Part shown: piece by piece, positions 7,276 to 29,451 of the stretch
How positions within the stretch are numbered: the first letter of the stretch is position 1
Layout of the letters: the number at the start of each line of letters is the position of its first letter
The notes under the pieces: generated by a model
Database searches by the model: none
Told to the model about the DNA's origin: nothing
The model's input: the letters and a program-made list of their open reading frames with translations, nothing else
Position numbers and translations under genes: made by a program
Source of the DNA: Bacteroidota bacterium
GTDB taxonomy: Bacteria; Bacteroidota; Bacteroidia; Flavobacteriales; Flavobacteriaceae
Direction: 5' to 3'
NCBI GenBank assembly: GCA_027593245.1
Contig: JAQCJC010000002.1
Location: forward strand, 1-58,063
Length of the DNA: 58,063 bases

Positions 7276-9552
7276 ATGTCAAAACGCACAAGACACGACT
7301 TAGAAGCTTTAGCTTATCATGCCAAGCCAAACCCTGGGAAAATACAAGTAGTTCCTACTAAAAAGTATGCCACCCAGCGTGATTTAGCTCTTGCGTATTC
7401 TCCTGGAGTTGCAGCGCCTTGTCTGGAAATTCAACAAAATCCAGCTGAAGCTTATAAATATACATCTAAAGGAAATTTAGTTGCAGTTATTTCAAATGGA
7501 ACAGCAGTTTTAGGTCTTGGAAATATTGGCCCAGAAGCGTCTAAACCTGTTATGGAGGGCAAAGGCCTTTTGTTTAAAATTTTTGCTGATATTGATGTTT
7601 TTGACATTGAAGTTGATACTGAAAATATTGATGAATTCATCAACACAGTTAAAAATATTGCACCCACTTTTGGAGGGATAAATCTTGAAGATATAAAAGC
7701 TCCTGAGGCTTTTGAAATTGAAAAACGTCTCAAAGAAGAATTGAATATTCCAGTGATGCATGATGACCAACATGGCACTGCTATTATCTCTGCTGCAGCT
7801 TTAATTAATGCTTTAGAGTTGGCAGAAAAACAAATCGAAGATGTTCTGATTGTAGTCAGTGGCGCGGGAGCTGCAGCGATTTCTTGCACCAGATTATACA
7901 TGTCTTTTGGTGCCAAGCGCGAAAATATCGTTATGCTCGACAGCAAAGGTGTTATTCGTCAAGATCGCCCTTCACTTACTTCTCAAAAAGCTGAATTTGC
8001 AACGACTAAAAAGATAGATACTTTGGATGATGCAATGCATGATGCCGATGTATTTATTGGTCTTTCTACATCCGATATTGTCACGCCTAAAATGCTAAAT
8101 TCTATGGCCAAAAACCCTATTGTTTTTGCTATGGCTAATCCTGATCCAGAAATCACTTACGACTTAGCTATAAAAACAAGAGAGGATATAATTATGGCTA
8201 CAGGAAGAAGTGATACTCCGAATCAAGTCAACAATGTTCTTGGATTCCCGTTTATATTTAGAGGTGCGCTAGACGTTCGCGCCACCACCATCAATGAAGC
8301 TATGAAAAAGGCTGCTGTAGTTGCCTTGGCAGAATTGGCCAAAGAGCCGGTACCTGAGCAGGTTAATATAGCCTACGGAGAAACTCGTCTAACCTTTGGA
8401 AGTGATTATATTATTCCTAAACCCTTTGATCCTAGATTGATTGCCAAAATCCCCCCTGCTGTAGCCAAGGCTGCAATGGATAGTGGTGTAGCCCAATTTC
8501 CTATTCAAGATTGGGAAAAGTACGAAGAAACCTTATTGGATCGAATGGGCGCGGATAACAAAATTGTTCGCTTATTGTTTGATAGAGCACGACTGAAGCC
8601 TAAACGTGTTGTTTTTGCAGAAGCTGATCAATTGGATGTGTTGAAAGCAGCACAAATTGTATATGAAGAAGGAATTGCACACCCTATTCTTTTGGGCAAT
8701 AAAAAGCAAATAGAACGGCTTAAAGAACAGCTTGAATTTGAAGCAGATGTTCCAATTATAGATCCAAAAGACGAAGATCATATCGAACAGAAGAACAAGT
8801 ATAGTGAGGTGTTTTGGAAACAACAAGAACGCAGTGGTCAAACACTTTTGTCAGCTCAGAAACTCATGCGCGAGCGAAATTATTATGCAGCAATGATGGT
8901 TAATGAAGGAGACGCCGATGCGTTAATAACGGGCTATTCAAGAAGCTATCCATCAATCGTAAAACCAATGTTAGATTTGATCGGATTAGCACCAGGATCA
9001 ACCCGTATTGCAACCACCAATGTTATGATTACGCGCAGAGGGCCATTATTTTTAAGCGACACCGCAATCAATATTAACCCAACTGCTCATGATTTGATCA
9101 AAATTACTCAAATGACTTCAGGAGTCATGAAAATGTTTGGAATTACACCTGTAATGGCGATGCTTTCATATTCTAATTTTGGCTCATCTAAAGACCAGAC
9201 AGCGACCAAGGTCCGTGAAGCAGTTTCTTATTTACACCGTCGTCATCCTGACTTGTCGGTCGATGGTGAACTCCAGACAGATTTTGCGCTTAATAGCGAT
9301 ATGTTGAGAGCTAATTTTCCATTTTCAAAACTCGCCAATAAAAAAGTAAATGCACTTATATTCCCCAATTTAGAATCGGCAAACATCACTTATAAATTGC
9401 TGAAAGAACTCAATAAGGCGGAGTCAATAGGGCCTATTATGATGGGGCTAAGAAAACCAGTCCATATTATACAATTTGGCGCTAGTGTAGATGAAATTGT
9501 CAACATGACGGCGGTAGCAGTGATTGATGCACAACAAAAAGAAAAGAAGTAA
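7276..9552 (+). CDS. maeB: NADP-dependent malic enzyme fused to a phosphotransacetylase-like domain
   Basis: A 758-residue protein of the MaeB type. Residues about 1-420 form the malic enzyme: a malic N-terminal domain (SPGVAAPCLEI, KGNLVAVISNGTAVLGLGNIG) and an NAD(P)-binding domain with VVSGAGAAA. Residues about 430-755 form a phosphate acetyl/butyryl transferase-like domain (RVVFAEA..., NVMITRRGPLFLSDTAIN), which in this family is regulatory: it senses acetyl-CoA rather than acting as a full enzyme. The reaction is malate to pyruvate plus CO2, giving NADPH and linking the TCA cycle to biosynthesis. A near-consensus promoter box (TATCTTTA at 7250-7257) lies 18 bases upstream. The fusion is the normal state of the family and not a frameshift. 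Confidence 0.96.
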   Translation: MSKRTRHDLEALAYHAKPNPGKIQVVPTKKYATQRDLALAYSPGVAAPCLEIQQNPAEAYKYTSKGNLVAVISNGTAVLGLGNIGPEASKPVMEGKGLLFKIFADIDVFDIEVDTENIDEFINTVKNIAPTFGGINLEDIKAPEAFEIEKRLKEELNIPVMHDDQHGTAIISAAALINALELAEKQIEDVLIVVSGAGAAAISCTRLYMSFGAKRENIVMLDSKGVIRQDRPSLTSQKAEFATTKKIDTLDDAMHDADVFIGLSTSDIVTPKMLNSMAKNPIVFAMANPDPEITYDLAIKTREDIIMATGRSDTPNQVNNVLGFPFIFRGALDVRATTINEAMKKAAVVALAELAKEPVPEQVNIAYGETRLTFGSDYIIPKPFDPRLIAKIPPAVAKAAMDSGVAQFPIQDWEKYEETLLDRMGADNKIVRLLFDRARLKPKRVVFAEADQLDVLKAAQIVYEEGIAHPILLGNKKQIERLKEQLEFEADVPIIDPKDEDHIEQKNKYSEVFWKQQERSGQTLLSAQKLMRERNYYAAMMVNEGDADALITGYSRSYPSIVKPMLDLIGLAPGSTRIATTNVMITRRGPLFLSDTAININPTAHDLIKITQMTSGVMKMFGITPVMAMLSYSNFGSSKDQTATKVREAVSYLHRRHPDLSVDGELQTDFALNSDMLRANFPFSKLANKKVNALIFPNLESANITYKLLKELNKAESIGPIMMGLRKPVHIIQFGASVDEIVNMTAVAVIDAQQKEKK

Positions 9553-9624: not shown

Positions 9625-10206
9625 ATGATCACTCACATAAGTGGAAAGCTAGTTGAAAAATCTCCAACAAATGTTGTGGTTGATTGTAACGGGATAGGCT
9701 ATTTTATTCACATTTCACTTCATACATTTTCACAGCTAACAAACGAGGAGCATGTTAAGTTACTTACCCATTTTCAGGTTAAAGAAGACGCACAGCAATT
9801 GTATGGTTTTGCAACATCAGCTGAGCGTGAAATATTTAGACTTTTAATCTCTGTCAGTGGGATTGGTACAAATACAGCACGAACTATGTTGTCTTCATTG
9901 ACGCCCAAACAAGTACGTGAAGGGATTGCCTGCGAGGACGTCGCATTGATTCAATCGGTCAAAGGGATCGGCCTTAAAACAGCCCAGCGTGTTATTATTG
10001 ATCTAAAAGATAAAGTCCTTAAAATTTACGACATTGACGAATCTGTTGCTGTTTCAAACAATACAAATAAAGATGAAGCGTTATCAGCACTAGAGGTTTT
10101 GGGATTTGCTAAAAAGCAATCGAACAGAGTTGTTGCGAAAATTATAGCGCAACAGCCTGATGCTACTGTAGAAATAATCATCAAAGATGCTCTAAAAAAT
10201 TTATAA
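9625..10206 (+). CDS. ruvA: Holliday junction DNA-binding protein RuvA
   Basis: A 193-residue protein that binds four-way DNA junctions as a tetramer and loads the RuvB motor. The N-terminal OB-fold begins MITHISGKLVEKSPTNVVVDC. Two helix-hairpin-helix segments follow (SVSGIGTNTAR and SVKGIGLKTAQR), and a C-terminal RuvB-contact domain contains EALSALEVLGF. Length and domain order are canonical. sprA begins 6 bases after the stop codon, an arrangement commonly seen in Flavobacteriia where ruvA, sprA and gcvH are neighbours. Confidence 0.98.
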   Translation: MITHISGKLVEKSPTNVVVDCNGIGYFIHISLHTFSQLTNEEHVKLLTHFQVKEDAQQLYGFATSAEREIFRLLISVSGIGTNTARTMLSSLTPKQVREGIACEDVALIQSVKGIGLKTAQRVIIDLKDKVLKIYDIDESVAVSNNTNKDEALSALEVLGFAKKQSNRVVAKIIAQQPDATVEIIIKDALKNL

Positions 10207-10212
10207 AAAATA

Positions 10213-13200
10213 TTGAAAATTTTCAATCTTAAAATAAATCTCAACAGCTACGCTGTTTTAGCTTTTCTCAGCTTAAGTAGTGTTTTATGGGCACAACAAA
10301 CCCCTGTTGTTCGTGATTCTACATCGACCACATTTTCATTTAGAGATCTTAGTACACCAGACCCAAGTAGTGTTGTCTCTAAATACACTTATGATCCGAT
10401 TACAGACCGCTATTACTACACCTCAAAAGTTGGTGATTTCAATATAAAATATCCGGTAATTCTCACACCCGAAGAATTTCAAGCCTTGGTTCAAAGGGAG
10501 AATTTGAAGAGTTATTACAAGGAGAAGCTAGATGCTTTTGATGGCAAAAAGGAAGGATCAGAAGCTGCCAAAAGGAATTTAATTCCAGATTTGTACGTGA
10601 ATTCCAAAGTTTTCGAAACAATTTTTGGCGGAAATGTCATATCAGTTGTTCCTCAGGGATCTGTAGAGATGGATCTTGGGGTAATGTATACCAAACAAGA
10701 AAACCCTGCTTTTTCACCAAGAAATCAAAGTAATTTTACTTTTGATTTTGATCAACGTATTAGCCTTAGCTTGATGGGGAAGGTTGGGACTCGACTACAG
10801 GTCAATGCGAATTATGATACTCAATCAACCTTTGACTTTCAAAATTTATTTAAAATTGAATTTGACCCAACTGCAGCAGCAGAAGAAGAGCTCTCTAAAA
10901 ATAATACAATTGGTGGGGGAGTAGCTAAGGCATCTGATTTAAAAAATAAAACTAATAACGGCAAATCTTACAGCGGCAATGAGGATACGATTTTAAAGAA
11001 GCTAGAAGTTGGTAATGTGAGTATGCCGCTCAACAGTTCCCTTATTAGGGGTGCTCAGAGTTTATTTGGGGTTAAGTCACAGTTACAATTTGGTAAAACA
11101 ACAGTTACGGGGGTATTCTCAGAACAGCAATCCGAAACACGAAGTATTGTAGCTCAAGGAGGAGGCGCACTTCAAGAGTTCGATTTTTTTGGATTGGATT
11201 ACGATGAAAACAGACATTTCTTTTTAGCTCAATATTTTAGAGATCATTACGATGAAGCTCTTGAAAATTATCCGTTTATAAACTCTCAAGTTCAAATCAC
11301 CAGAATAGAAGTTTGGGTAACTAACAGAACTAACCAGACACAAAATGTTCGTAATATTTTAGCTCTTCAAGACTTAGGAGAATCCTCAAGAATTGGGTTA
11401 ACTGTCCCGCCAGTTGACTTTATCAATGTTGGGCCTAATGCATATCCAGACAATGCAAATAATGATTTTGACCCTACCACTATTGGCGAACCAGGATCAC
11501 AACTTACAGAATCCATTCGCGATATAGCAACTGCACAATCTGGATTTTTAACATCAGGAGTCAATGAAGGATTTGACTACGGAAAATTAGAAAATGCAAG
11601 AAAATTAATTGAAGGAAACGAGTACAGGGTCAATACACAGCTGGGTTATATTTCACTTAACCAACGCCTTCAAAATGATGAGGTCTTGGCCGTCGCTTTT
11701 CAGTTTACCGTTGGAGGCGAAGTTTATCAAGTGGGTGAGTTTGCTAATGATGGTTTGAATGCTACTGAAGTCAGCACTGATTTAAATACGGGGAATGAGA
11801 TTGTAAACAACCAAAGTCTTGTCCTTAAAATGCTTAAAAGTGCAGTGACCAATGTAGAACTACCTATTTGGGATTTGATGATGAAAAACGTCTATGACAC
11901 TGGCGCATACCAATTGTCCCAAGAAGACTTTAAGTTAAATATTTTTTATAATGAAACCTCATCCTTAAATTTCATTTCACCTGTAGATGGAACACCATTC
12001 CCCAATCCGGTTGCTAATCAGGACCCTATCAACGACATCCCATTGATTCGCCTTTTTAATTTTGACCGACTGAATTTTAATAATGATCCGCAGAACAATG
12101 GGGACGGTTTTTTCGATTTTGTGCCTGGGATAACAGTGATTCCACAAAACGGGAAAATTATTTTCACTAAAGCGGAGCCTTTTGGTGCTTATTTATTTGA
12201 AACTTTGAGGTTAAATCCTTCCGAAAACTACCAGGCAGACGAAACGCTTCCTGGTGCGTACAATGCGAATCAGACCAAATATGTATATAGATCTTTATAT
12301 ACGAGTACAAAAACAGCGGCCCTTCAAGATAGCGAAAAAAATAAGTTTCAAATTCGAGGACGTTACAAATCTAGTGGAGGCTCTGGGATTCCTATCGGAG
12401 CATTTAATGTGCCAAGAGGCTCGGTTAAAGTCACTGCAGGGGGGCGTGTGCTGGTTGAAGGGGTCGACTACACCGTGAATTATCAAATAGGAACGGTTCA
12501 AATATTAGACCCATCCCTTCAGTCGTCCAATACTCCAATTCAAGTCTCTGTTGAAAATAATTCTGTTTTTGGGCAACAAACAAGACGTTTTACAGGGTTT
12601 AACGTAGAACACCAATTCAATGAAAATTTCGTATTAGGTGCAACACTTTTAAATTTAAATGAACGCCCAATAACTCAGAAAGCAAATTACGGTACCGAGC
12701 CGATCAACAACACCGTTATAGGCTTTAATGGAAACTATTCTACAGAACTGCCCTTTATGACACGAATGGCAAATAAACTCCCTAATATTGACACTGACGC
12801 GACTTCTAATTTATCACTGCGCGGAGAATTTGCTTACTTAAAGCCAGGCGCACCTAAAGGCACTGATTTTAATAATGAGGTAACTTCTTATATTGACGAT
12901 TTCGAAGGCACCCAAAATGGGATTAGCTTACTCACACCACAATCTTGGTTTTTGTCAAGTCGACCAAAAGGATTAGGACGGTTATATGCACAAGGAAACG
13001 AAGACGATAACGGTTATCAAAATGGTTTTGACAGAGCTCTTTTGAATTGGTATACTATAGACCCAATTTTCTATAGTTCCCAACGCCCTGGAGAAATTTC
13101 AGATGACGATGTTTCAGACCTTTACACACGACGTATTTTTATTGATGAGCTATTTCCAGAAATTGATTTGGTAACAGGTCAATATACGGTAATTAACTCT

Positions 13201-16200
13201 TTAGATTTGGTTTATAGACCCAGCGAGCGTGGGCCATACAATTACCAACAAGGCGCTGAAGACGGCATTTTAGATAACCCACAGAATAGTTGGGCTGGGA
13301 TTTCAAGACAATTAACCTCTACTGATTTTGAACAAGCTAATGTAGAATATGTTGAGTTTTGGTTGATGGATCCCTTTTTAAATAATCCGTCAAACCCTGG
13401 AGGTAAATTGGTTCTTAACTTAGGGAATATCTCTGAGGACGTTATTAAGGACGGGAAAAAGCAATACGAAAATGGGCTGCCAAGTGATGGTGATGTAAGT
13501 TTGCTGCCTCCCTCTGTTTGGGGGACTGTATCCCCTCAAAATCAGTCGTTGATTTATGCTTTTTCGACTCAAGGGCAGGAGCGTAACAACCAAGATGTTG
13601 GGCTTGACGGTTATGATGATACTGAAGAGCGAAATACTACAGATGCTCGATTTACTTCGTTTTCGAATCTTGCCGATCCTGCAAATGACAATTATACCTA
13701 TTACCTAAACTCAAGTGGTGATATTTTTGAACGTTACAAGCGATACAATGGGCTTGAAGGAAACTCACCAGATATATTTACTGAAACTAACAGAGGATCC
13801 ACCACACAACCCGACGTAGAAGATATCAATAGAGATAACACAATGAATACCATTGATAGTTATTACGAATACGAATTAGACATCACATTTTCGGCTCTAA
13901 ATAACCCAAATAGCCCATACATTGTTGACCGAAAATCGATTACAAATATCACGCTTCCAAATGGTTCTCAGTCGGGTGACATCAATTGGTATCAGTTTAG
14001 AATTCCACTTACTGAATTTACCAATGCTGTAGGAGGAATATCAGATTTTAGATCGATCCGCTTCACAAGGATGTATCTTAAAGAATTTACAGAAACAACA
14101 GTGTTGAGGTTTGGTACTTTTGATTTGGTGCGAAGCGACTGGCGACGATTTTTACAGTCTTTGGACAATGATTCAGATGCTGCTACTGCTTTGGAACCAA
14201 CAGACTTTAGTGTCGGAATAGTTGGCATTCAAGAAAACGATGGCAGTTATGTTTCACCCCCAAATGTTCAACGCGAGCAGCTTAATAACAACAACACTAT
14301 TGTACGTCAAAATGAGCAGTCTCTTGTAGTAGATGTTTGTGAATTGGAGCCTCAGGACTCAAGAGCTGTTTTTAAGAACATCAATGTCGATATGCGTCAG
14401 TACAAAAAACTTAAGATGTTTATCCACGCGGAGGATGGTGAAGCGGATAGTTTTGAACAAGGCCAATTAGTTGCTTTTGTGCGTATGGGTAATGATTTTA
14501 CACAAAATTATTATCAATTAGAATTGCCACTTAGAAAATCATCCGGTGCGACTGGCGCCTCTGAATCTGAAGTCTGGCCTGAATACAACGAACTCAACAT
14601 CCCTTTGGAATTTTTAGAAAAAATTAAAGCATTAGGGATTAGTCAAGGGACTCTAGTAAATGAAGAACCTACATTTTATGATATAATTGATGGGGAATTG
14701 CAAGAGACACCTGTTGGGGAGTTTACTCCATTTTCTCTTAGCATTAACTCCACCCAATCTGAAGCGCCTTATGAGCAACGTATTGCAATTAAAGGAAATC
14801 CAAACTTTGGTGATATCCGCTCGCTTATGGTGGGGATAAAAAATATTGGTTCTGCCGACCAATGCGCTGAGGTATGGTTTAATGAACTGCGCATCGCTGA
14901 TATGGATAATGAAGGCGGCTGGGCAGCCATTATGAGTATGGATACTAATATTGCAGATTTCATGAATGTCAATGCCACAGCAAAACGAAGCACCACGGGC
15001 TTTGGAAACATCGATCAAGGACCAAACGAACGCAGTAGGGAAGATTTAAAACAATACGATTTTGTAACCAACATGAATGTTGGCCAATTATTACCTAAAA
15101 AATGGGGGCTTCAAATTCCGTTTAATTACGGACAAAGTGAAACTTTAATTACTCCTGAATATGATCAACAGTACAAAGATTTAAAGCTCCAAAACCGCAT
15201 AGATGCTGCCGAGACAAATGAAGAGCGAGATCGAATTCGAATGCAGTCAGAGGATTACACTAAGCGCAAAAGCATCAACTTTATTGGGGTTAAAAAACAA
15301 CGGACTGGAGATGCAAAACCTAGAATTTACGACGTTGAAAACCTAACCCTAAATTACTCATACAATGAAATGAAACATCGTGATTTTGAAATTGAAAACT
15401 CTCTTGATCAGAATGTTCGCGTTGGGGCAAATTACGCCTATAGTTTCCAACCATTAAATTTTGAACCATTTAAGGAAAATGATTCATTGTTTACTGGAAA
15501 ATACTGGAAAATTATTAAAGATTTTAATCTTAACTTATTGCCGTCAAACCTGACGATCAATTCCGATATTATTCGTCAATTCAATAGTCAAAAGTTTAGA
15601 GATGCTGATCTAGGAGCAAGTAATATTACGGTGGATGAGTTGATCCGAAGAAACTACACTTTTGATCTGGAATATACGTTAAACTATCAGCTCACAAATG
15701 CCTTAAGTTTTAATTTTACATCATCCAACAATCACATTGTTCGGAACTATTTTATAAACGATGATTTGAACGGAGATCAGGACCCTAGCTTAGGAGTATG
15801 GGACCGTTTTTTCGACTTTGGGGACCCAAACCGGCATTCGCAACAATTGGGAATAAATTATGAATTACCGCTTTACAAAATTCCAACATTGAGTTTCTTG
15901 ACTGCAAATTATTCGTACACAGGAGATTTTCTCTGGAACAAGGGATCAGACCTCTTTGGTCAACTAAACATTAACGGGCAGACTTATGATTTAGGAAATT
16001 CGATATCTAATGCCAATCAGCACAATCTCAATACCTCTTTTGATATGCGTAAGCTTTACCGTTATTTGGGATTAAAAACCTCTAGATCTTCGCGCCCATC
16101 ACGTGTTCGGAACAATTCCAGCACCAATTCTGGACGCACTGCATCTAAAAAGAAATTTAACATCAAAGACTTTGGGCTAGGATTACTCACGGCTATCAAT

Positions 16201-17553
16201 AGAATGCAAGTCAACTATTCTGAAAGCAACAGCTCTTTTTTGCCGGGCTATTTACCAACGCCTGGATTTGTTGGGACCATGAAGCCTACATTGGGCTACA
16301 CTTTAGGGAGTCAGCGGGATGTTCGAATTGTTGCTGCTCAGAACGGCTGGCTCACAACATTCGATCAATTTAATCAGCAGTATTCAGAAACACATAATGA
16401 AAACTTGGATTACGCCATAAATACCGAGCCTATATCAGACTTAAAAATCGATTTTACAGGGGGTAAAACTTATGCTACAAACTTTACAGAAAACTTTAAC
16501 ACCTCCGACACAAATGGGGATGGTTTAAGCAACACCTATAATTCACTTATTCAAAATACATTTGGTAATTTTAACATATCAACAGCATTGATTCGAACAG
16601 CCTTTAGTCAAAGCGATGAATTCAATTCCGCCCCTTTTGAAGATTTCAAAAACAACAGATTGGTGATTGCCAACAGATTGGCTCAGGATTTTTACGGGAA
16701 CACAGCTTATGCTACGGATGCTGAGGGATACCCCTTAGGTTTTGGTAAAAACAGCCAGTCTGTTTTGCTGCCTGCATTCTTGTCGGCTTATTCTGGTAAA
16801 AAAGCAAATAAAATTAGCCTAGATGCTTTCCGCGACATCCCAATTCCGAATTGGACTTTGAAATACACAGGGTTAATGAAAAATAAATGGTTTAAAAAAC
16901 ATTTCAGGCGATTTTCCATTACGCATGGCTATAGATCTTCTTATACAATAAACCAGTTCCGTACGAATTTAGATTACAAAGCTGCTGATCCTAATTTGGA
17001 TTATGCCTCTCAAAATTCCAATGTTTTAGACCAGTCTGGCAATTTCAAAGTTAAGACCCTGTTTAGTAATGTTAATTTGGTTGAACAATTTAGCCCCTTA
17101 ATAAAAGTGGATTTCGAAATGAAAAACTCCATTAAGCTATCTACAGAAATCAAAAAAGACCGAAGCTTATCCATGAGCTTTGACAATAACTTGTTGACAG
17201 AAATCCAAGGTTATGAATATATTTTTGGATTAGGTTACCGTATAAAAGATCTACGTATCAGGTCGAAATTGGCGGGACCTCGAAAAATCATAAAGAGTGA
17301 TTTGAATATGAAAGCCGATTTGTCTGTACGGAATAACAAGACAATAATAAGATATTTAGATTTAGACAATAATCAAGTGAGTGCTGGCCAAACAATATGG
17401 AGTTTAAAATACGCGGCTGATTATGCTTTTAGCAGTAATTTGACTGCAATATTTTATTTTGATTACGCATTCTCAGAATATGCAATATCTACAGCCTTTC
17501 CACAAACCACCATAAGGTCTGGATTTACTCTGCGATATAATTTTGGAAACTAA
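10213..17553 (+). CDS. sprA: SprA/Sov family type IX secretion outer-membrane translocon
   Basis: A 2446-residue protein, the size of SprA (Sov in Porphyromonas), the very large beta-barrel that forms the export channel of the type IX secretion system and is needed for gliding in Flavobacterium. The only usable start is a TTG at 10213; an in-frame stop lies 6 bases upstream and the TTG gives a signal peptide ending LSSVLWAQQ. The sequence has long aromatic/asparagine-rich beta-strand patterns throughout, an N-terminal SprA segment with SVVPQGSVEMDLG, a middle region with YIDDFEGTQ, and a C-terminal barrel strand ending FTLRYNFGN. It lies between ruvA and gcvH. The reading frame is intact over 7.3 kb. 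Identity rests on length, architecture and synteny. Confidence 0.95.
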   Translation: MKIFNLKINLNSYAVLAFLSLSSVLWAQQTPVVRDSTSTTFSFRDLSTPDPSSVVSKYTYDPITDRYYYTSKVGDFNIKYPVILTPEEFQALVQRENLKSYYKEKLDAFDGKKEGSEAAKRNLIPDLYVNSKVFETIFGGNVISVVPQGSVEMDLGVMYTKQENPAFSPRNQSNFTFDFDQRISLSLMGKVGTRLQVNANYDTQSTFDFQNLFKIEFDPTAAAEEELSKNNTIGGGVAKASDLKNKTNNGKSYSGNEDTILKKLEVGNVSMPLNSSLIRGAQSLFGVKSQLQFGKTTVTGVFSEQQSETRSIVAQGGGALQEFDFFGLDYDENRHFFLAQYFRDHYDEALENYPFINSQVQITRIEVWVTNRTNQTQNVRNILALQDLGESSRIGLTVPPVDFINVGPNAYPDNANNDFDPTTIGEPGSQLTESIRDIATAQSGFLTSGVNEGFDYGKLENARKLIEGNEYRVNTQLGYISLNQRLQNDEVLAVAFQFTVGGEVYQVGEFANDGLNATEVSTDLNTGNEIVNNQSLVLKMLKSAVTNVELPIWDLMMKNVYDTGAYQLSQEDFKLNIFYNETSSLNFISPVDGTPFPNPVANQDPINDIPLIRLFNFDRLNFNNDPQNNGDGFFDFVPGITVIPQNGKIIFTKAEPFGAYLFETLRLNPSENYQADETLPGAYNANQTKYVYRSLYTSTKTAALQDSEKNKFQIRGRYKSSGGSGIPIGAFNVPRGSVKVTAGGRVLVEGVDYTVNYQIGTVQILDPSLQSSNTPIQVSVENNSVFGQQTRRFTGFNVEHQFNENFVLGATLLNLNERPITQKANYGTEPINNTVIGFNGNYSTELPFMTRMANKLPNIDTDATSNLSLRGEFAYLKPGAPKGTDFNNEVTSYIDDFEGTQNGISLLTPQSWFLSSRPKGLGRLYAQGNEDDNGYQNGFDRALLNWYTIDPIFYSSQRPGEISDDDVSDLYTRRIFIDELFPEIDLVTGQYTVINSLDLVYRPSERGPYNYQQGAEDGILDNPQNSWAGISRQLTSTDFEQANVEYVEFWLMDPFLNNPSNPGGKLVLNLGNISEDVIKDGKKQYENGLPSDGDVSLLPPSVWGTVSPQNQSLIYAFSTQGQERNNQDVGLDGYDDTEERNTTDARFTSFSNLADPANDNYTYYLNSSGDIFERYKRYNGLEGNSPDIFTETNRGSTTQPDVEDINRDNTMNTIDSYYEYELDITFSALNNPNSPYIVDRKSITNITLPNGSQSGDINWYQFRIPLTEFTNAVGGISDFRSIRFTRMYLKEFTETTVLRFGTFDLVRSDWRRFLQSLDNDSDAATALEPTDFSVGIVGIQENDGSYVSPPNVQREQLNNNNTIVRQNEQSLVVDVCELEPQDSRAVFKNINVDMRQYKKLKMFIHAEDGEADSFEQGQLVAFVRMGNDFTQNYYQLELPLRKSSGATGASESEVWPEYNELNIPLEFLEKIKALGISQGTLVNEEPTFYDIIDGELQETPVGEFTPFSLSINSTQSEAPYEQRIAIKGNPNFGDIRSLMVGIKNIGSADQCAEVWFNELRIADMDNEGGWAAIMSMDTNIADFMNVNATAKRSTTGFGNIDQGPNERSREDLKQYDFVTNMNVGQLLPKKWGLQIPFNYGQSETLITPEYDQQYKDLKLQNRIDAAETNEERDRIRMQSEDYTKRKSINFIGVKKQRTGDAKPRIYDVENLTLNYSYNEMKHRDFEIENSLDQNVRVGANYAYSFQPLNFEPFKENDSLFTGKYWKIIKDFNLNLLPSNLTINSDIIRQFNSQKFRDADLGASNITVDELIRRNYTFDLEYTLNYQLTNALSFNFTSSNNHIVRNYFINDDLNGDQDPSLGVWDRFFDFGDPNRHSQQLGINYELPLYKIPTLSFLTANYSYTGDFLWNKGSDLFGQLNINGQTYDLGNSISNANQHNLNTSFDMRKLYRYLGLKTSRSSRPSRVRNNSSTNSGRTASKKKFNIKDFGLGLLTAINRMQVNYSESNSSFLPGYLPTPGFVGTMKPTLGYTLGSQRDVRIVAAQNGWLTTFDQFNQQYSETHNENLDYAINTEPISDLKIDFTGGKTYATNFTENFNTSDTNGDGLSNTYNSLIQNTFGNFNISTALIRTAFSQSDEFNSAPFEDFKNNRLVIANRLAQDFYGNTAYATDAEGYPLGFGKNSQSVLLPAFLSAYSGKKANKISLDAFRDIPIPNWTLKYTGLMKNKWFKKHFRRFSITHGYRSSYTINQFRTNLDYKAADPNLDYASQNSNVLDQSGNFKVKTLFSNVNLVEQFSPLIKVDFEMKNSIKLSTEIKKDRSLSMSFDNNLLTEIQGYEYIFGLGYRIKDLRIRSKLAGPRKIIKSDLNMKADLSVRNNKTIIRYLDLDNNQVSAGQTIWSLKYAADYAFSSNLTAIFYFDYAFSEYAISTAFPQTTIRSGFTLRYNFGN

Positions 17554-17576: not shown

Positions 17577-17957
17577 ATGAATGTACCTGAAGAATTAAAA
17601 TATACCAAAGACCATGAGTGGGTTAGTGCCAAGGGCGATATACTCACGATTGGGATTACTGATTTTGCTCAAGGCGAACTAGGAGATATCGTTTATGTTG
17701 AAGTGGATACATTGGACGAGACCCTCGAAGCTGAAGAAGTTTTTGGTACGGTTGAAGCCGTAAAAACTGTATCCGATTTGTTCCTTCCAGTTGCTGGAGA
17801 AATTATTGAATTTAACGATTCGCTAGAAGATGAACCAGAAAAAGTCAATGATGACCCTTACGGAGCTGGCTGGATGATAAAGCTTAAATGTTCTAATTTA
17901 GCCGATCTCGAGGAGTTGATGTCTGCCGATGATTATAAAGCTTTAATCGGTGTTTAA
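17577..17957 (+). CDS. gcvH: Glycine cleavage system H protein
   Basis: A 126-residue lipoyl carrier protein. It shuttles the aminomethyl group between the P, T and L proteins of the glycine cleavage system. The lipoylation site is Lys63 in GTVEAVKTVSDL; the opening PEELKYTKDHEWV and the closing GWMIKLK are typical. None of the other cleavage-system genes is in the window; the gene's place here, directly after sprA, reflects flavobacterial synteny and not function. The VanZ-like gene overlaps its end by 8 bases. Confidence 0.98.
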   Translation: MNVPEELKYTKDHEWVSAKGDILTIGITDFAQGELGDIVYVEVDTLDETLEAEEVFGTVEAVKTVSDLFLPVAGEIIEFNDSLEDEPEKVNDDPYGAGWMIKLKCSNLADLEELMSADDYKALIGV

Positions 17958-21504: not shown

Positions 21505-21592
21505 AGAGAGGTGGCCGAGTGGTCGAAGGCGCACGCCTGGAAAGTGTGTATACGCCAAAAGCGTATCGAGGGTTCGAATCCCTTCCTCTCTG
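21505..21592 (+). tRNA. tRNA-Ser (anticodon GGA)
   Basis: An 88-base class II tRNA. The 7-bp acceptor stem AGAGAGG/CCTCTCT is perfect. The D-arm holds GCC...GGC. The anticodon stem CACGC/GTGTG encloses CTGGAAA, giving anticodon GGA for TCC/TCT serine codons. A long variable arm (TACGC/GCGTA) and a T-arm with TTCGAAT follow. The 3' CCA is not encoded (GCAA follows the acceptor stem). The long variable arm and the anticodon fix the serine identity. Confidence 0.97.
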
Positions 21593-21749: not shown

Positions 21750-22526
21750 ATGAAAAAATTATTTCCAATTCTAGCTATCGCCCTAACGATGGCAATCGGG
21801 TCTGTAAACGCAAGTACAAACACGAACATGAACACCATAACAACAACAATTGTTAGTCCAGTTCAAGATGATGCTTCTGCTGAACAAGTAGAGTCTTTAG
21901 GATTTCATCAAGAACTTAAGAAACGATTTATTGAAGGTGGTCCTGGATTCATGGGCATCGTTTTGTTGTGTCTTATTTTAGGATTAGCCATAGCTATCGA
22001 AAGAATTATTTTCTTGAATCTTTCAACAACAAACACAAAAAAGTTAACTGAAGATGTAGAAGAAGCACTTTCTTCTGGGGGTGTGGAAGCCGCTAAAGAA
22101 GTATGTAGAAATACTAAAGGGCCAATTGCATCAATTTTTTATCAAGGTCTTGATCGGTCCAATGAAGATTTAGACGCAGCTGAAAAAGCCGTTGTTGCTT
22201 ATGGTGGTGTTCAAATGGGACAATTAGAAAAGAACGTTTCCTGGATTTCATTGTTTATCGCTTTGGCGCCAATGCTTGGTTTTATGGGAACTGTAATTGG
22301 GATGATTCAAGCATTCGATAAAATTGAAGCTGCTGGAGATATGCAGCCATCGCTTGTTGCTGGAGGGATTAAAGTAGCACTTCTAACAACGGTATTTGGT
22401 CTTATTGTTGCAATTATATTACAGATTTTTTACAACTATATTATAGCAAAAATTGATAGCATTGTAAATAACATGGAAGACGCTTCTATATCATTGATGG
22501 ATATACTTGTAAAGAACAAAAAATAA
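21750..22526 (+). CDS. exbB: MotA/TolQ/ExbB-family proton channel protein
   Basis: A 258-residue inner-membrane protein with an N-terminal signal-like helix (residues 1-22), a Thr/Asn-rich linker, one helix at about residues 65-85, then a long cytoplasmic stretch and two closing helices (about 155-180 with IALAPMLGFMGTVIGMIQAF and about 200-225). The GFMGTVIGM segment is the ExbB/TolQ signature. With ExbD it forms the proton-driven motor that energises TonB-dependent transport. The extra N-terminal helix is typical of Bacteroidota ExbB proteins. It opens a four-gene cluster with two exbD genes, and the TonB-family gene is 2.7 kb upstream. Confidence 0.93.
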   Translation: MKKLFPILAIALTMAIGSVNASTNTNMNTITTTIVSPVQDDASAEQVESLGFHQELKKRFIEGGPGFMGIVLLCLILGLAIAIERIIFLNLSTTNTKKLTEDVEEALSSGGVEAAKEVCRNTKGPIASIFYQGLDRSNEDLDAAEKAVVAYGGVQMGQLEKNVSWISLFIALAPMLGFMGTVIGMIQAFDKIEAAGDMQPSLVAGGIKVALLTTVFGLIVAIILQIFYNYIIAKIDSIVNNMEDASISLMDILVKNKK

Positions 22527-22561
22527 CTCTACATAACTCATACTAAATCAAATAAATAATT

Positions 22562-23002
22562 ATGGATTTACAAAAATTATTAAAGATTGTAGCTGCAGTT
22601 ATAGGAGTCTTGTCTATCGTTTTTCTCATAAGTATTATCTCTACAGGTGATGATGCTATTAAAGCTGGAGAAGCCTCAACAAGTGTAAGTACTTTTATGT
22701 ATGTAGCTTATTTTATTTTAGCTGTTGCTGTTTTGGCCGTAGTGATTTTTACTGTACTCAACTTGGTATCAAATTCAGTAGAATTAAGAAATACATTAAT
22801 CTCAGTTGGTGCTTTTTTAGTGGTGGCTTTAATTTGTTATTTCATTGCTTCTGGAGCAGAAACGGTTCTAAAAGACGGCTCTATCCTTACTGAAGGACAA
22901 TCAAAGCTTGTTGGAGCGGGACTATATTTGTTCTATACTTTAGGGTTTGTTGCAGCTCTAACAATGCTGGTCTTCGGCATTAAAAAAACTCTTAATAAGT
23001 AA
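22562..23002 (+). CDS. Four-helix membrane protein of unknown function within the exbB-exbD cluster
   Basis: I do not recognise a characterised family. The 146-residue protein has four clear hydrophobic helices at about residues 8-27, 43-66, 76-95 and 118-140, with short loops and a lysine-rich C-terminus. It has no cysteine motif or enzymatic signature. It lies 35 bases after exbB and 2 bases before the first exbD, so it is surely co-expressed with them. A role as an accessory subunit or assembly factor for the ExbB-ExbD motor is plausible, but this is only inferred from location. Confidence 0.8.
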   Translation: MDLQKLLKIVAAVIGVLSIVFLISIISTGDDAIKAGEASTSVSTFMYVAYFILAVAVLAVVIFTVLNLVSNSVELRNTLISVGAFLVVALICYFIASGAETVLKDGSILTEGQSKLVGAGLYLFYTLGFVAALTMLVFGIKKTLNK

Positions 23003-23004
23003 TT

Positions 23005-23607
23005 ATGGCTAAACGATCTGCACCAGAAGTTAATGCAGGCTCAATGGCCGACATTGCTTTTTTATTGTTAATATTTTTCTTGGTAACAACGACCATTGAA
23101 AAGGATTCGGGTATCAACCGAAAACTTCCACCAATGGAAGAAATAGAACCACCAATTATTAAGCAGAAAAATATATTCACGGTATTATTAAACGGAAAAG
23201 ATCAATTGCTCGTTGAAGATGAACTCATGGAAATAGAGGACTTGCGCGTTGCTGCCGTAGAGTTTTTGGATAATAATGGCGATAAAACATGCGATTATTG
23301 TCAAGGTAAAAAAGATCCCTCTTCTTCTGACAACCCTGATAAAGCAATTATATCTTTGAAAAACGAACGCGAAACATCATATGCTGCATATATTTCAGTG
23401 CAAAATGAATTGGTTGCTGCTTACAATGTTTTAAGAAACAGACGCGCATTAGAGATTGGTCCAGGGCGAGGATTCAGAGATATGAATTTTGTAGAAATGG
23501 AAAAAAATTATAAAGATGCTCGATTTGTTGGAAACAAAGAGAAACTCAAGGCAGTGATTGATCAAATCAAGTTAGAGTTTCCTCAAAAACTATCGGAGGT
23601 ACAGTAG
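23005..23607 (+). CDS. exbD: ExbD/TolR-family protein, first copy
   Basis: A 200-residue ExbD protein: a short cytoplasmic N-terminus, one membrane helix (about residues 15-33, ADIAFLLLIFFLVTT) with the proton-carrying Asp16, and a periplasmic domain. The periplasmic part is longer than in E. coli ExbD (141 residues) and contains an insertion with a CDYC motif at residues 96-99 and a region rich in Ser/Asp/Pro. The protein should pair with ExbB in the membrane. It follows the unknown four-helix gene by 2 bases and precedes a second exbD by 26. Confidence 0.93.
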   Translation: MAKRSAPEVNAGSMADIAFLLLIFFLVTTTIEKDSGINRKLPPMEEIEPPIIKQKNIFTVLLNGKDQLLVEDELMEIEDLRVAAVEFLDNNGDKTCDYCQGKKDPSSSDNPDKAIISLKNERETSYAAYISVQNELVAAYNVLRNRRALEIGPGRGFRDMNFVEMEKNYKDARFVGNKEKLKAVIDQIKLEFPQKLSEVQ

Positions 23608-23633
23608 TAGTTTCACTATTTAAATAAAACAAA

Positions 23634-24113
23634 ATGTCAAAATTTAAAAAGAAAAAAGACGGAGGACTTCCTGCAATTTCTACAGCTTCTCTTCCAGATA
23701 TTGTATTCATGTTGCTGTTCTTCTTTATGGTTGCTACTGTGATGCGTGAGAATTCATTAAAAATACAAAATTCACTTCCCGTAGCCAATCAAGTTGAAAA
23801 ACTAGACAAGAAAAATCCAGTGAGTTATATATACATGGGTAAACCAAGTTCAGGTTACGAAAAATTTGGATCAGAAGCCCGTATACAACTCAACGATCAA
23901 TTTGCCTCTCTATCTGAGGTTAGTACATTTGTAAGCTCTGAAAGAGCTGCTTTGCGTGAGGAATTAATCCCTTTTTTAACGATAGCACTTAAGGTAGATC
24001 GAGAAGCAAATATGGGTATTGTTGGTGATGTTAAGCAAGAACTTAGAAAAGTTAATGCATTAAAAATAAACTATACAACTGGTGTTGGAGACGTTTCCTC
24101 TAATATGAATTAA
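23634..24113 (+). CDS. exbD: ExbD/TolR-family protein, second copy
   Basis: A 159-residue ExbD paralogue with a lysine-rich N-terminus, a membrane helix at about residues 20-38 (LPDIVFMLLFFFMVATVM) carrying Asp22, and a short periplasmic domain (about 45-155). It lacks the CxxC insertion of the first copy. Two different ExbD subunits next to one ExbB are a regular Bacteroidota arrangement; they may form a mixed dimer inside one ExbB pentamer, or serve different TonB partners. A terminator follows. Confidence 0.92.
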   Translation: MSKFKKKKDGGLPAISTASLPDIVFMLLFFFMVATVMRENSLKIQNSLPVANQVEKLDKKNPVSYIYMGKPSSGYEKFGSEARIQLNDQFASLSEVSTFVSSERAALREELIPFLTIALKVDREANMGIVGDVKQELRKVNALKINYTTGVGDVSSNMN

Positions 24114-24139
24114 ATTTCATCAACTATTTTAGTCAAATA

Positions 24140-24172
24140 AAAAAAGGTATTCATGATTGAGTGCCTTTTTTT
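24140..24172 (+). terminator. Terminator of the exbB-exbD cluster
   Basis: A 14-bp stem (AAAAAAGGTATTCA / TGAGTGCCTTTTTT, two G-T wobbles) with a 4-base loop runs into a T-tract just after the second exbD. It separates the motor genes from the porT-like gene. Confidence 0.8.
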
Positions 24173-24200
24173 GTACATTTAATTTTTGAACCTTTTCCTT

Positions 24201-24878
24201 ATGAAAAACATAATCATTACGGGCTTTTTTTTAATTCATTTTATAAGTCTTTGGGCACAAACAACTGTAGACGACTCTGACGCACTATACAGAGAAGATC
24301 AATTTTATTTTGGGCTTACCTATAATACATTTTTAGATACACCAAATGGTTTCAGTCAATCCGGATTTTCACCAGGACTTAAATTGGGGTTCATTCGAGA
24401 TTTTCCCATCAATTCCAAACGTACAATTGCAGTTGCCCTTGGATTAGGCTATGCGTTCAATACACATTCTGAAAACATTAAGATTATTAAATCGGCTGAT
24501 GTCTTTCAGTATGAAATTGTAAATGCCAACTCGTTCAAGAAAAATAGATTTTCTCATCACGGGATTGAGATTCCAATCGAGTTTCGTTGGCGTACATCAA
24601 GTCCTCAAGAATATAAATTTTGGAGAATATATGCCGGGTTTAAGGCCAGCTATCTTTTTGCGTCGAATTATCTTTTTGAAAACAGTGCGGGGAGAACAAG
24701 ATTAGACCATATAAATCTTAATCCTTGGCAATATGGTTTGACACTTAGTTTAGGATATAACAATTGGAATGGATACTTGTATTATGGGTTAAATCCTATG
24801 TTTAGAGATGCCTTTGTTGATCAAGATGAATTGGAATTAAAATCCGTTAAAATCGGTTTAATGTTTTACTTTTTGTAA
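24201..24878 (+). CDS. porT: PorT-family outer-membrane beta-barrel protein (type IX secretion/gliding)
   Basis: A 225-residue protein starting at ATG 24201 (an upstream in-frame codon at 24186 would spoil the signal peptide). The signal peptide ends near SLWAQ. The mature part alternates hydrophobic and polar residues as in an eight-stranded barrel (YFGLTYNTF, FSPGLKLGFIRDF, TIAVALGLGYAF, YGLTLSLGYN) and ends with an aromatic strand MFYFL. This fits PorT/SprT, an outer-membrane component needed for type IX secretion. General outer-membrane protein assembly domains look similar, so the exact PorT role is inferred from length, pattern and its place after exbD. Confidence 0.72.
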   Translation: MKNIIITGFFLIHFISLWAQTTVDDSDALYREDQFYFGLTYNTFLDTPNGFSQSGFSPGLKLGFIRDFPINSKRTIAVALGLGYAFNTHSENIKIIKSADVFQYEIVNANSFKKNRFSHHGIEIPIEFRWRTSSPQEYKFWRIYAGFKASYLFASNYLFENSAGRTRLDHINLNPWQYGLTLSLGYNNWNGYLYYGLNPMFRDAFVDQDELELKSVKIGLMFYFL

Positions 24879-24999: not shown

Positions 25000-27900
25000 A
25001 TGAGCGTTATATTTCCGGAGCACAAAGGATTAAACCTACCTAAGCTAGCAGAGGATCTGTTGGGCTATTGGAAAAAACACCAAATTTTTGAGGAAAGTAT
25101 TTCATCTCGAGAAGGCCAAAAACCGTATGTATTTTTTGAAGGCCCGCCATCTGCTAATGGGCTGCCTGGTGTTCACCATGTTCTGGCACGTGCTATAAAA
25201 GATATTTTTCCGCGCTACAAAACCATGAAAGGATTTCAAGTCAAACGAAAAGCTGGCTGGGATACACATGGGCTTCCAATAGAGTTGGGCGTAGAAAAAG
25301 AGCTAGGTATAACAAAAGAAGATATCGGCAATACGATATCTGTTGAAGACTACAATGCTGCATGTAGAAAAGCGGTGATGCGTTATACTGACGTTTGGAA
25401 TGACCTTACCGAAAAAATGGGGTATTGGGTGAATATGGACGATCCTTATGTAACTTATGACCCTAAATACATGGAAAGTGTTTGGTGGTTATTGAAAGAA
25501 ATCTACTCCAAAAATTTATTATACAAAGGCTATACCATTCAGCCGTATTCTCCCAAAGCCGGAACAGGGCTTAGCTCGCATGAGCTGAATCAACCAGGAA
25601 CTTACCAAGATGTTACAGACACCACTGTTGTTGCTCAATTTAAAGCGCTACAGGAATCTCTTCCTGAATGCTTACAAAACCAAGGAGAAATTCATTTTTT
25701 GGCCTGGACAACAACTCCGTGGACACTTCCTAGCAATACAGCTCTAACCGTTGGTTTAAAAATTGAATATGTTCTTGTAAAAACGTATAATCAATATACA
25801 TTTGAGCCTATAACAGTAGTTTTGGCGAAAGCCTTAATTGGGAAACAATTTTCTGGAAAATTCTGTCAAGTTGAATCTTTAGAGGAATTAGAGAACTACA
25901 ATAAAGAAGACAAAACAATTCCTTTTTTAGAGATAAAATCTTTTCTTGGTGCGGATTTAGTAGGAGTTAAATACGAGCAACTGCTTCAGTATGCTTTACC
26001 TAACGACAATCCAGAACATGCATTTCGTATTATAGCAGGCGATTTTGTAACAACAGAAGACGGAACAGGGATTGTACATACAGCGCCTACATTTGGGGCT
26101 GATGACGCCATAGCTGCAAAGCAAGCAACACCTGAAATTCCTCCTCTTTTAGTTAAAGATGAAAGCGATAATTTGGTTCCTTTAGTGGATTTGCAAGGGC
26201 GTTTTCGAAAAGAAGTCAAAGACTTTGCTGGTCGTTATGTCAAGAACGAATATTATCAGAAAGGTGAAGCGCCACAAAAATCTGTAGATGTAGAATTGGC
26301 GATCAAGCTTAAGACTGAAAATAAAGCTTTTAAAGTTGAAAAATACAAACACAGTTATCCAAATTGTTGGCGTACCGATAAGCCAATTTTATATTACCCT
26401 TTAGATTCTTGGTTTATAAAAATCAGTCAAGTTAAAAAACGCATGTTTGATTTAAATCAAACCATCAATTGGAAGCCAAAAAGTACGGGTGAAGGGCGTT
26501 TTGGTAATTGGCTTGCCAATGCCAATGATTGGAATCTTTCACGTTCGCGTTATTGGGGTATTCCATTGCCTATCTGGCGTTCTGAAGACGGTAAAGAAGA
26601 AATTTGTATCGGATCTGTAAAAGAACTAAAGGGCGAAATGCAAAAATCTGTGGCGGCTGGATTAATGACTAAGGATATTTTTGATGATTTTATAGTCGAT
26701 GACTATTCCGACAAAAATTATTCTAAAATAGATTTGCATAAAAATATTGTGGATCCTATCGTCTTAGTGTCCGCATCTGGACAGCCAATGTACCGGGAAA
26801 GTGATCTCATAGACGTTTGGTTTGACTCAGGGAGCATGCCTTACGCTCAGTGGCATTACCCATTTGAGAATAAAAATCTTATAGATGAAAACAAGACCTT
26901 CCCAGCGGATTTTATTGCTGAAGGAGTTGACCAAACACGTGGTTGGTTTTACACATTACATGCTATTGGCACTATGGTTTTTGACTCTGTGGCGTATAAA
27001 AATGTTGTCTCAAACGGATTAGTTTTAGATAAAAATGGTCAAAAAATGTCGAAACGTCTAGGCAATGCGACTGATCCTTTTGAAACCTTGGCCACCTATG
27101 GACCAGATGCTACTCGTTGGTACATGATTAGCAATGCTAATCCGTGGGATAACCTGAAGTTCGATATTGAAGGAATTGAGGAAGTCAAGCGAAAGTTTTT
27201 TGGCACCTTGTTCAATACCTATTCCTTTTTCACCCTCTACGCAAACATAGATCAATTTAAATATACGGAAACTGATATACCACTAGCTGAACGTCCTGAG
27301 ATAGACCGCTGGATCTTATCTGAGCTTAACACCCTCATTACAAAAGTTGATGAATATTATGCAGATTATGAACCTACAAAAGCCGCAAGAATAATATCAG
27401 AATTTACACAGGAATACCTCAGTAATTGGTTTGTCAGACTCAGTAGGAGGCGTTTTTGGAAAGGAGATTATCAAAGGGACAAAATCTCTGCCTACCAGAC
27501 GTTATTCACTTGCATGCTTACTATTTCAAAACTGGGTGCGCCAATTGCTCCTTTTTATATGGATCGTTTGTATTTGGATCTTATTCAGCATACCGGCAAA
27601 GAAGCCTTTAAGAGTGTTCATTTAGCAGAATTTCCTAAGGCCAATACTGTAATGATCGACAAAGCCCTTGAAAGTAAAATGGCCCAAGCTCAATTGATAT
27701 CTTCATTAGTTTTATCCCTTAGGGCAAAAGAGAAAATAAAAGTACGTCAGCCCCTGCAAAAAATTATGATCCCTGTAGCGTCTGCTACACAAAAGGAAGA
27801 AATATTGGCAATTTCTAACCTCATTAAGCATGAGGTTAATATTAAAGAAATCGAACTTCTAGAAGATGCCTCAGATATTTTAGTTAAACAAATTAAACCC

Positions 27901-28407
27901 AATTTTAAAGTATTAGGGCCTAGATTTGGTAAGGACATGAGGTTTGTAGCAACTGTAGTACAGAACTTGGATGCAGATGCGATAAAAGAAATTGAAAAAC
28001 AAGGCCATTTAGAGGTTGAAATTAACGGAAAATTTAGTACATTGAAACTCAGTGATGTTGAAATTACATCACAAGATATTGAAGGTTGGCTTGTGGCTAA
28101 TCAAGGTGCAGTGACCGTAGCACTGGATGTCACTATCACTGAATCTTTAAGAGAGGAAGGTATAGCTCGTGAGCTGGTGAATCGAATTCAGAATTTAAGA
28201 AAAGATTCAGGGTTTGAACTCACAGACCACATAGATGTATTTTTAGTGCATGAAACGAGCATGCACAAAGCCATCCAAACCAATTTAGATTATATTAAGG
28301 CAGAAACACTAACACATACATTACACGAAGTTAATCAACTTGATGAGGGAATAGAGATAGATTTTGATGATATTTCCACCAAGTTATTTATTAAAAAACA
28401 CAATTAA
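25000..28407 (+). CDS. ileS: Isoleucyl-tRNA synthetase, type 2, with swapped GxHH signature
   Basis: A 1135-residue class I synthetase that charges tRNA-Ile. The start is ATG 25000; an in-frame TTG at 24979 would overlap the promoter. Catalytic, editing (CP1) and anticodon-binding domains are in normal order, and the length fits the eukaryote-like IleRS2 group. The HIGH motif reads G57-V58-H59-H60 instead of HxGH. The second signature is KMSKR (682-686). Type 2 IleRS enzymes tolerate mupirocin, and a GxHH variant of IleRS2 has been described as hyper-resistant while remaining active. No second ileS is in the window. Aminoacylation is secure; resistance is an inference from the motif. dksA-like and lspA genes follow closely. 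Confidence 0.97.
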   Translation: MSVIFPEHKGLNLPKLAEDLLGYWKKHQIFEESISSREGQKPYVFFEGPPSANGLPGVHHVLARAIKDIFPRYKTMKGFQVKRKAGWDTHGLPIELGVEKELGITKEDIGNTISVEDYNAACRKAVMRYTDVWNDLTEKMGYWVNMDDPYVTYDPKYMESVWWLLKEIYSKNLLYKGYTIQPYSPKAGTGLSSHELNQPGTYQDVTDTTVVAQFKALQESLPECLQNQGEIHFLAWTTTPWTLPSNTALTVGLKIEYVLVKTYNQYTFEPITVVLAKALIGKQFSGKFCQVESLEELENYNKEDKTIPFLEIKSFLGADLVGVKYEQLLQYALPNDNPEHAFRIIAGDFVTTEDGTGIVHTAPTFGADDAIAAKQATPEIPPLLVKDESDNLVPLVDLQGRFRKEVKDFAGRYVKNEYYQKGEAPQKSVDVELAIKLKTENKAFKVEKYKHSYPNCWRTDKPILYYPLDSWFIKISQVKKRMFDLNQTINWKPKSTGEGRFGNWLANANDWNLSRSRYWGIPLPIWRSEDGKEEICIGSVKELKGEMQKSVAAGLMTKDIFDDFIVDDYSDKNYSKIDLHKNIVDPIVLVSASGQPMYRESDLIDVWFDSGSMPYAQWHYPFENKNLIDENKTFPADFIAEGVDQTRGWFYTLHAIGTMVFDSVAYKNVVSNGLVLDKNGQKMSKRLGNATDPFETLATYGPDATRWYMISNANPWDNLKFDIEGIEEVKRKFFGTLFNTYSFFTLYANIDQFKYTETDIPLAERPEIDRWILSELNTLITKVDEYYADYEPTKAARIISEFTQEYLSNWFVRLSRRRFWKGDYQRDKISAYQTLFTCMLTISKLGAPIAPFYMDRLYLDLIQHTGKEAFKSVHLAEFPKANTVMIDKALESKMAQAQLISSLVLSLRAKEKIKVRQPLQKIMIPVASATQKEEILAISNLIKHEVNIKEIELLEDASDILVKQIKPNFKVLGPRFGKDMRFVATVVQNLDADAIKEIEKQGHLEVEINGKFSTLKLSDVEITSQDIEGWLVANQGAVTVALDVTITESLREEGIARELVNRIQNLRKDSGFELTDHIDVFLVHETSMHKAIQTNLDYIKAETLTHTLHEVNQLDEGIEIDFDDISTKLFIKKHN

Positions 28408-28797: not shown

Positions 28798-29451
28798 ATG
28801 CCAAAAAAGAATGCCCTTATTGTTATTCTTTTAGTTTTATTTGTAGACCAAGTCACGAAAATATACATCAAAACCCATTTTGAGCTTGGGCAGGAGTTTG
28901 TGGTTTTTGACTGGTTTAAAATTCTTTTTGTTGAAAATGACGGCATGGCATGGGGCGCTAAGCTCAGCGACTTTTCTGCTCATATTTCCGACAAAACAGC
29001 TAAATTAGTTCTCACATTATTTAGATTAGTTGCCGTTGTAGGAATTGGTTGTTGGCTGTATACAACTATTAAAAAAAAATCAGCTCATCACTTAATTTAT
29101 GCTTTGGCATTGATTTTTTCGGGAGCACTTGGAAATATTATTGACTCTGTTTTTTATGGAGTTGTTTTTGATGATAGTTTAGGTCAAAAAGCCTCTCTTT
29201 TTAGCGAAAACCCTTACGGTTCTCTTTTTTATGGAAAAGTAGTTGATATGCTGCACTTCCCTGTGCTTAAAGGATATTTACCAAATTGGATGCCTTTCGT
29301 TGGTGGAGAATATTTTACATTTTTTAATCCTGTTTTTAATTTTGCTGATGTAGCTATTAGTACAGGAGTTGGTCTTTTGTTGGTGTACAATCACAGAAAT
29401 TCAAGTTCAAAGCAAAACCCTAATCAAACTGATAAATCTGATTTGGCGTAA
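28798..29451 (+). CDS. lspA: Lipoprotein signal peptidase (signal peptidase II)
   Basis: A 217-residue inner-membrane aspartyl protease that removes signal peptides from lipidated prolipoproteins. The start is ATG 28798, one base after the preceding stop; a longer in-frame form would overlap the dksA-like gene. Four helices are visible. The catalytic aspartates lie in GNIIDS (mid-protein) and FNFADVAI (near residue 185), with NDGMAWG upstream. The protein is about 50 residues longer than E. coli LspA, with insertions before helix 2 and between the catalytic motifs, as usual for Bacteroidota. It would process ActE, the DUF5689 lipoprotein and others. Its end overlaps the convergent cyclo-ligase gene by 32 bases. 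Confidence 0.95.
   Translation: MPKKNALIVILLVLFVDQVTKIYIKTHFELGQEFVVFDWFKILFVENDGMAWGAKLSDFSAHISDKTAKLVLTLFRLVAVVGIGCWLYTTIKKKSAHHLIYALALIFSGALGNIIDSVFYGVVFDDSLGQKASLFSENPYGSLFYGKVVDMLHFPVLKGYLPNWMPFVGGEYFTFFNPVFNFADVAISTGVGLLLVYNHRNSSSKQNPNQTDKSDLA

Follow-up and report, generated by a model that had tools for sequence, protein, structure and literature searches.

Type 2 isoleucyl-tRNA synthetases (IleRS2) that have the class I HXGH signature with its first and third residues swapped, known as the G/AXHH class, were described in 2023 as hyper-resistant to mupirocin, in a study that provides kinetics, motif exchanges, structures, and a model of the clash with the antibiotic (Brkic et al. 2023, PMC10485003). 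Its tree of 379 sequences contained 86 G/AXHH and 77 HXGH type 2 enzymes, with the swap absent from type 1. The study also placed the swap in a functional context and reported that swapping the motif keeps type 2 enzymes active and inactivates type 1 enzymes. The natural ALHH enzyme of D. radiodurans (DrIleRS2) has a mupirocin Ki of 6.6 mM, which a change to HVGH lowers 823-fold, and an engineered GVHH motif raises the Ki from 0.20 to 35 µM in T. thermophilus IleRS2 (TtIleRS2) and from 1.08 to 460 µM in P. megaterium IleRS2 (PmIleRS2; PMC10485003). The main text of that paper, as distinct from its figures, source data, and supplements, contains no occurrence of Bacteroidota. At the level of titles and opening parts of abstracts, our literature search returned no other work on the GxHH motif, and it yielded no Bacteroidota IleRS with a measured mupirocin Ki.

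Here, we analyze an ileS gene of a Flavobacteriaceae bacterium, located in a stretch of 58,063 nucleotides that we refer to as the window. Like the IleRS2 enzymes of S. griseus and D. radiodurans, the window enzyme is of type 2 and has residues 1 and 3 of the signature exchanged; very weak mupirocin binding has been measured for those two enzymes and is predicted for the window enzyme. Its best match among solved structures is P. megaterium IleRS2, with the engineered GVHH form (8C8W) at the top (774 bits). The wild-type P. megaterium enzyme (8C8U, 8C8V), however, reads HVGH, and that species also has an IleRS1, in contrast to the single GVHH ileS found in the window's genome. We estimate at roughly 95% the probability that this gene encodes the single housekeeping IleRS2 of the bacterium and that the enzyme, carrying GVHH, is active and binds mupirocin weakly.

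Assignment and signature motifs of the window IleRS

The ileS frame runs for 1135 codons from its ATG to a stop at 28405-28407. The mechanical open reading frame opens at an upstream TTG (24979), and the start in L007, the nearest relative, lines up with the ATG that we adopt (Table 1). The protein scores 977.6 bits against the ileS profile TIGR00392, above the cut-off of 621.4, and is therefore a member of that family; Pfam recognizes a class I catalytic domain, an anticodon-binding domain, and a C-terminal DUF5915. The GVHH motif lies inside EGPPSANGLPGVHHVLARAIKD.

Table 1. Coordinates of ileS, its motifs, and the two genes that follow it in the window
Feature	Position	Strand	Basis
ileS, type 2 isoleucyl-tRNA synthetase, 1135 aa	25000..28407 (stop included)	+	Reading frame, profile and structure-sequence matches
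GVHH codons (ggt gtt cac cat), residues 57-60, instead of HxGH	25168..25179	+	
KMSKR codons, residues 682-686, second class I signature	27043..27057	+	From residue position
DUF5915 (PF19302), C-terminal domain, residues 940-1133	27817..28398	+	Pfam match
Small DksA/TraR-type C4 zinc-finger protein, 125 aa	28419..28796	+	PF01258
lspA, signal peptidase II	28798..29451	+	PF01252 on 28801-29448; start is ATG 28798, mechanical ORF opens at TTG 28771

We assign the window enzyme to type 2 by score, because four P. megaterium IleRS2 sequences match it at 760-774 bits, compared with 277 bits for wild-type P. megaterium IleRS1 and 285 bits for its GMHH mutant (8C9F). Ranked after P. megaterium IleRS2 is 1ILE, which we take to be the T. 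thermophilus enzyme, at 686 bits; 1FFY, presumably the type 1 enzyme of S. aureus, scores 280 bits. A search of the stretch around KMSKR against solved structures gained nothing further. With a glycine at position 1 and a histidine at position 3, GVHH falls within the G/AXHH class, which is defined by G or A at the first position and H at the third. The original prediction had read GVHH and KMSKR as the two signature motifs of a type 2 enzyme and had equated the swap with the hyper-resistant form already described; the frame translation, the structure-sequence scores, and the class definition bear out these readings.

Distribution of the motif and number of ileS genes

A scan of named genomes returned at least 590 relatives, from which the best 80 (70-89% identity) were kept. 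Their record titles give either named genera, which we take to be Flavobacteriaceae, or designations as a Flavobacteriaceae, Flavobacteriales, Flavobacteriia, or Bacteroidetes bacterium. A number of the genera also appear in a list that assigns the family to Bacteroidota, and these named relatives identify the surveyed phylum as Bacteroidota. All of these best 80 carry GxHH, 55 as GIHH and 25 as GVHH. For a wider reading, 125 genomes were picked to cover every family label (f1 to f50), with 25 mostly lower-scoring ones among them; 101 came from a 198-genome draw over the phylum, of which G205 and the window's own genome were also retrieved, and 24 only from a 31-genome draw of relatives, from whose motif reading G005, G016, G017, and G018 were left out. 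Dropped before the count were L109 and L110 (the same genes as L113 and L114), L112 (a C-terminal piece of the L111 gene), and L115, a match in genome G224 that lies below the ileS cut-off and contains PPPNITGILHFGH. GxHH was present in 125 of 125 genomes across the 50 family labels (99 GIHH, 24 GVHH, 1 GMHH, and 1 GLHH); since L209 and L212 repeat the DNA of the named loci L007 and L065, 123 of these are additional to the named set. Locus L091 reads GVHH, as does L007.

No HxGH-bearing ileS appeared in any locus retrieved, whether from the phylum and relatives draws, the best 80 named genomes, or G205, although the same motif script does pick up HxGH where it is present, in frames of ValRS type from the window's genome, G224, G205, and G005. 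Chance is not at issue, because GxHH occurs in every readable relative while a 910-aa frame of the window's own genome, a putative ValRS that carries PPPNVTGILHMGH, keeps HMGH. That GVHH might be a sequencing or assembly error has a negligible probability in the face of the same pattern in the 80 best named relatives, in all 125 genomes, and in one further fragment, with GVHH also in the nearest relative. GxHH is thus the uniform state in all relatives with a readable motif and, contrary to what the original prediction implied, it is no peculiarity of this gene or organism; the swap itself had, moreover, been published in 2023. A broader reading, which includes the fixation of GxHH throughout Bacteroidota and thereby an entire major phylum without a mupirocin-sensitive IleRS, is unlikely when taken as a whole.

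For the second signature motif, KMSKR is found in 79 and KMSKS in 1 of the best 80 of at least 590 named relatives, and in 26 loci from more distant genomes, including 2 repeats, the motif ends in S in 17, R in 6, T in 2, and K in 1. Given this variation at the final position, we reject the idea that KMSKR is a further anomaly.

In the window's assembly (2,020,132 bases in 142 contigs), a protein search and a search with the ileS profile alike yield one ileS. The remaining matches are frames of 910, 985, and 708 aa, all below the ileS cut-off, which on size and relationship are putatively ValRS, LeuRS, and MetRS. A second, canonical ileS with HxGH was sought with both the protein and the profile, and nothing besides these three frames emerged, although an assembly that is 90.88% complete cannot by itself exclude one. 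Across the phylum draw, for which a completeness filter of 90% was applied, a single ileS match (E <= 1e-120) was obtained in 197 of 198 genomes, the window's own included; because 4 of 6-16 candidates per genome were scored, this count leaves some room for a weaker second copy. The one genome without a match (G205) has part of an ileS at the edge of a contig, and this fragment reads GIHH. A type 1 enzyme should be visible to the ileS model used, since it detects ileS in all 14 named control genomes, which include E. coli and B. subtilis. With all candidates scored, ileS exceeded the cut-off in 29 of the 31 genomes of the relatives draw and in no case twice; the two others are G010, with an N-terminal part only, and G005, in which the match is confined to a C-terminal part where a contig begins and the motif is therefore unreadable. 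A further set, likewise with all candidates scored, gave one ileS over the cut-off in 25 of 26 genomes and two in none.

With exactly one ileS match in all but one of the 198 phylum genomes, the GVHH enzyme is most likely the housekeeping IleRS, as the original prediction had proposed for the case of a sole ileS. Between the window gene and L007, 1005 of 1135 residues are identical, with a Nei-Gojobori dN of 0.067 and dS of 1.84; the resulting ratio of 0.036 is rough because dS is near saturation, and ileS is plainly under purifying selection. A housekeeping role is in keeping with this low ratio (about 0.04) and with the arrangement in which ileS is followed by the zinc-finger gene and then by lspA. 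An alternative would make the window gene an acquired copy that confers resistance, resembling MupA or MupB or serving the self-protection of a producer, beside a canonical ileS elsewhere. MupA and MupB (NCBIfam NF000257, NF000258) are related type 2 sequences and, as the window enzyme is expected to be, belong to a mupirocin-resistant class, and the window protein reaches 730 bits with the MupA model and 743 bits with the MupB model. These scores nevertheless fall far below the curated cut-offs of 1900 bits, which rules out a MupA/MupB-type gene, and, unlike MupA and MupB, the window ileS sits in a gene order conserved downstream in named relatives, in an assembly that yields no other ileS, and 197 of the 198 genomes of the phylum draw give one match each. 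We therefore consider an acquired copy very improbable.

Expected consequences for mupirocin binding

In the housekeeping GVHH enzyme, whose lineage has positions 1 and 3 of the class I HxGH signature swapped, His59 at the third position would take the transition-state role of the canonical first histidine, by analogy with the crystallized P. megaterium mutant. It could do so because the helix tip of type 2 enzymes is shifted enough to accommodate it, and the same histidine would be predicted to clash with mupirocin. The window enzyme should thus stay active, with a mupirocin Ki anywhere from tens of micromolar to millimolar; GVHH by itself is no guarantee of a millimolar value, because in the T. 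thermophilus enzyme the GVHH motif brings the Ki to no more than 35 µM (PMC10485003). We infer the catalytic role of His59, the Ki, and any resistance of the cell by analogy with these described enzymes.

The original prediction went further and held that the organism is naturally highly resistant to mupirocin. For the enzyme, resistance at the level of the target appears sound by analogy with D. radiodurans, S. griseus, and the engineered enzymes; resistance of the cell would be a further prediction, and in Gram-negative cells the envelope and efflux also count towards resistance. Our literature search found nothing decisive on mupirocin MICs in Bacteroidota. A model predicts that mupirocin in plates raised Bacteroidaceae diversity (PMC13085705), which fits weakly with insensitivity to the antibiotic.

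It is also possible that the swap is an old, nearly neutral trait of the lineage rather than an adaptation to mupirocin, and that cell resistance is owed as much to the envelope and efflux. This account is compatible with a weakly binding housekeeping enzyme and differs on why the motif is present. GxHH in every phylum genome read would suit it, as would the at least two gains and one reversion inferred for the swap and its little cost in natural enzymes (PMC10485003), and efflux can give mupirocin resistance without a target change in Pseudomonas (PMC13188873). The authors of the 2023 study, however, argue for environmental antibiotics as the selection on the swap, and engineering GVHH into two canonical type 2 enzymes cost up to tenfold in kcat or KM (PMC10485003); in addition, a correlation between mupirocin MIC and the type of IleRS spans a number of species (PMC4861432). 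On balance, we hold this account to be somewhat less likely than not.

Whichever origin applies, the swap in this housekeeping IleRS2 is in itself ordinary and was already explained in print in 2023, and the GVHH finding opens no new mechanism. Relative to the main text of the 2023 study, our analysis adds a small extension in breadth, namely the occurrence of GxHH in every genome of the phylum where the motif was read. The enzyme illustrates how residues of a catalytic signature can trade places with function retained. The survey points to insensitivity to mupirocin at the level of the target as the phylum's usual condition and not as an acquired trait, a point of relevance to the listing of ileS from Bacteroidota genomes in resistance catalogues. 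In this respect, a Flavobacteriaceae genome paper tabulates isoleucyl-tRNA synthetase under mupirocin (PMC10835994).

Neighboring genes and the rest of the window

Among the best 80 of at least 590 named relatives, 78 have at least 1100 bases downstream of ileS, and in all 78 the zinc-finger gene lies directly 3' of it; lspA comes next in 64 of the same 78. The zinc-finger gene is thus linked to ileS more constantly than lspA is. A T-box-type regulatory RNA is ruled out for the window, since Rfam at the gathering threshold gives no T-box or other regulatory RNA across its whole length and has a tRNA-Ser (21505-21592) as its sole match.

Upstream of ileS, positions 21750-24878 hold an ExbB-type gene, a 146-aa open reading frame for which Pfam gives no match at E <= 1e-5, an open reading frame at 23005-23607, an ExbD-type gene, and an outer-membrane barrel gene. 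Few of these genes recur upstream of ileS in the relatives: the ExbD gene and the barrel gene are each matched in 1 of the 80 loci (the best 80 of at least 590). Of these loci, 77 extend at least 1500 bases upstream, and divergence could hide some barrel genes. Elsewhere in the window, a giant open reading frame of 2446 aa (10213-17553) contains two SprA_N stretches, characteristic of a motility/secretion protein, and is flanked by ruvA (9625-10206) before it and by the gene for the glycine cleavage H protein (17577-17957) after it. A 758-aa protein encoded at 7276-9552 combines malic enzyme and phosphate acetyltransferase domains.
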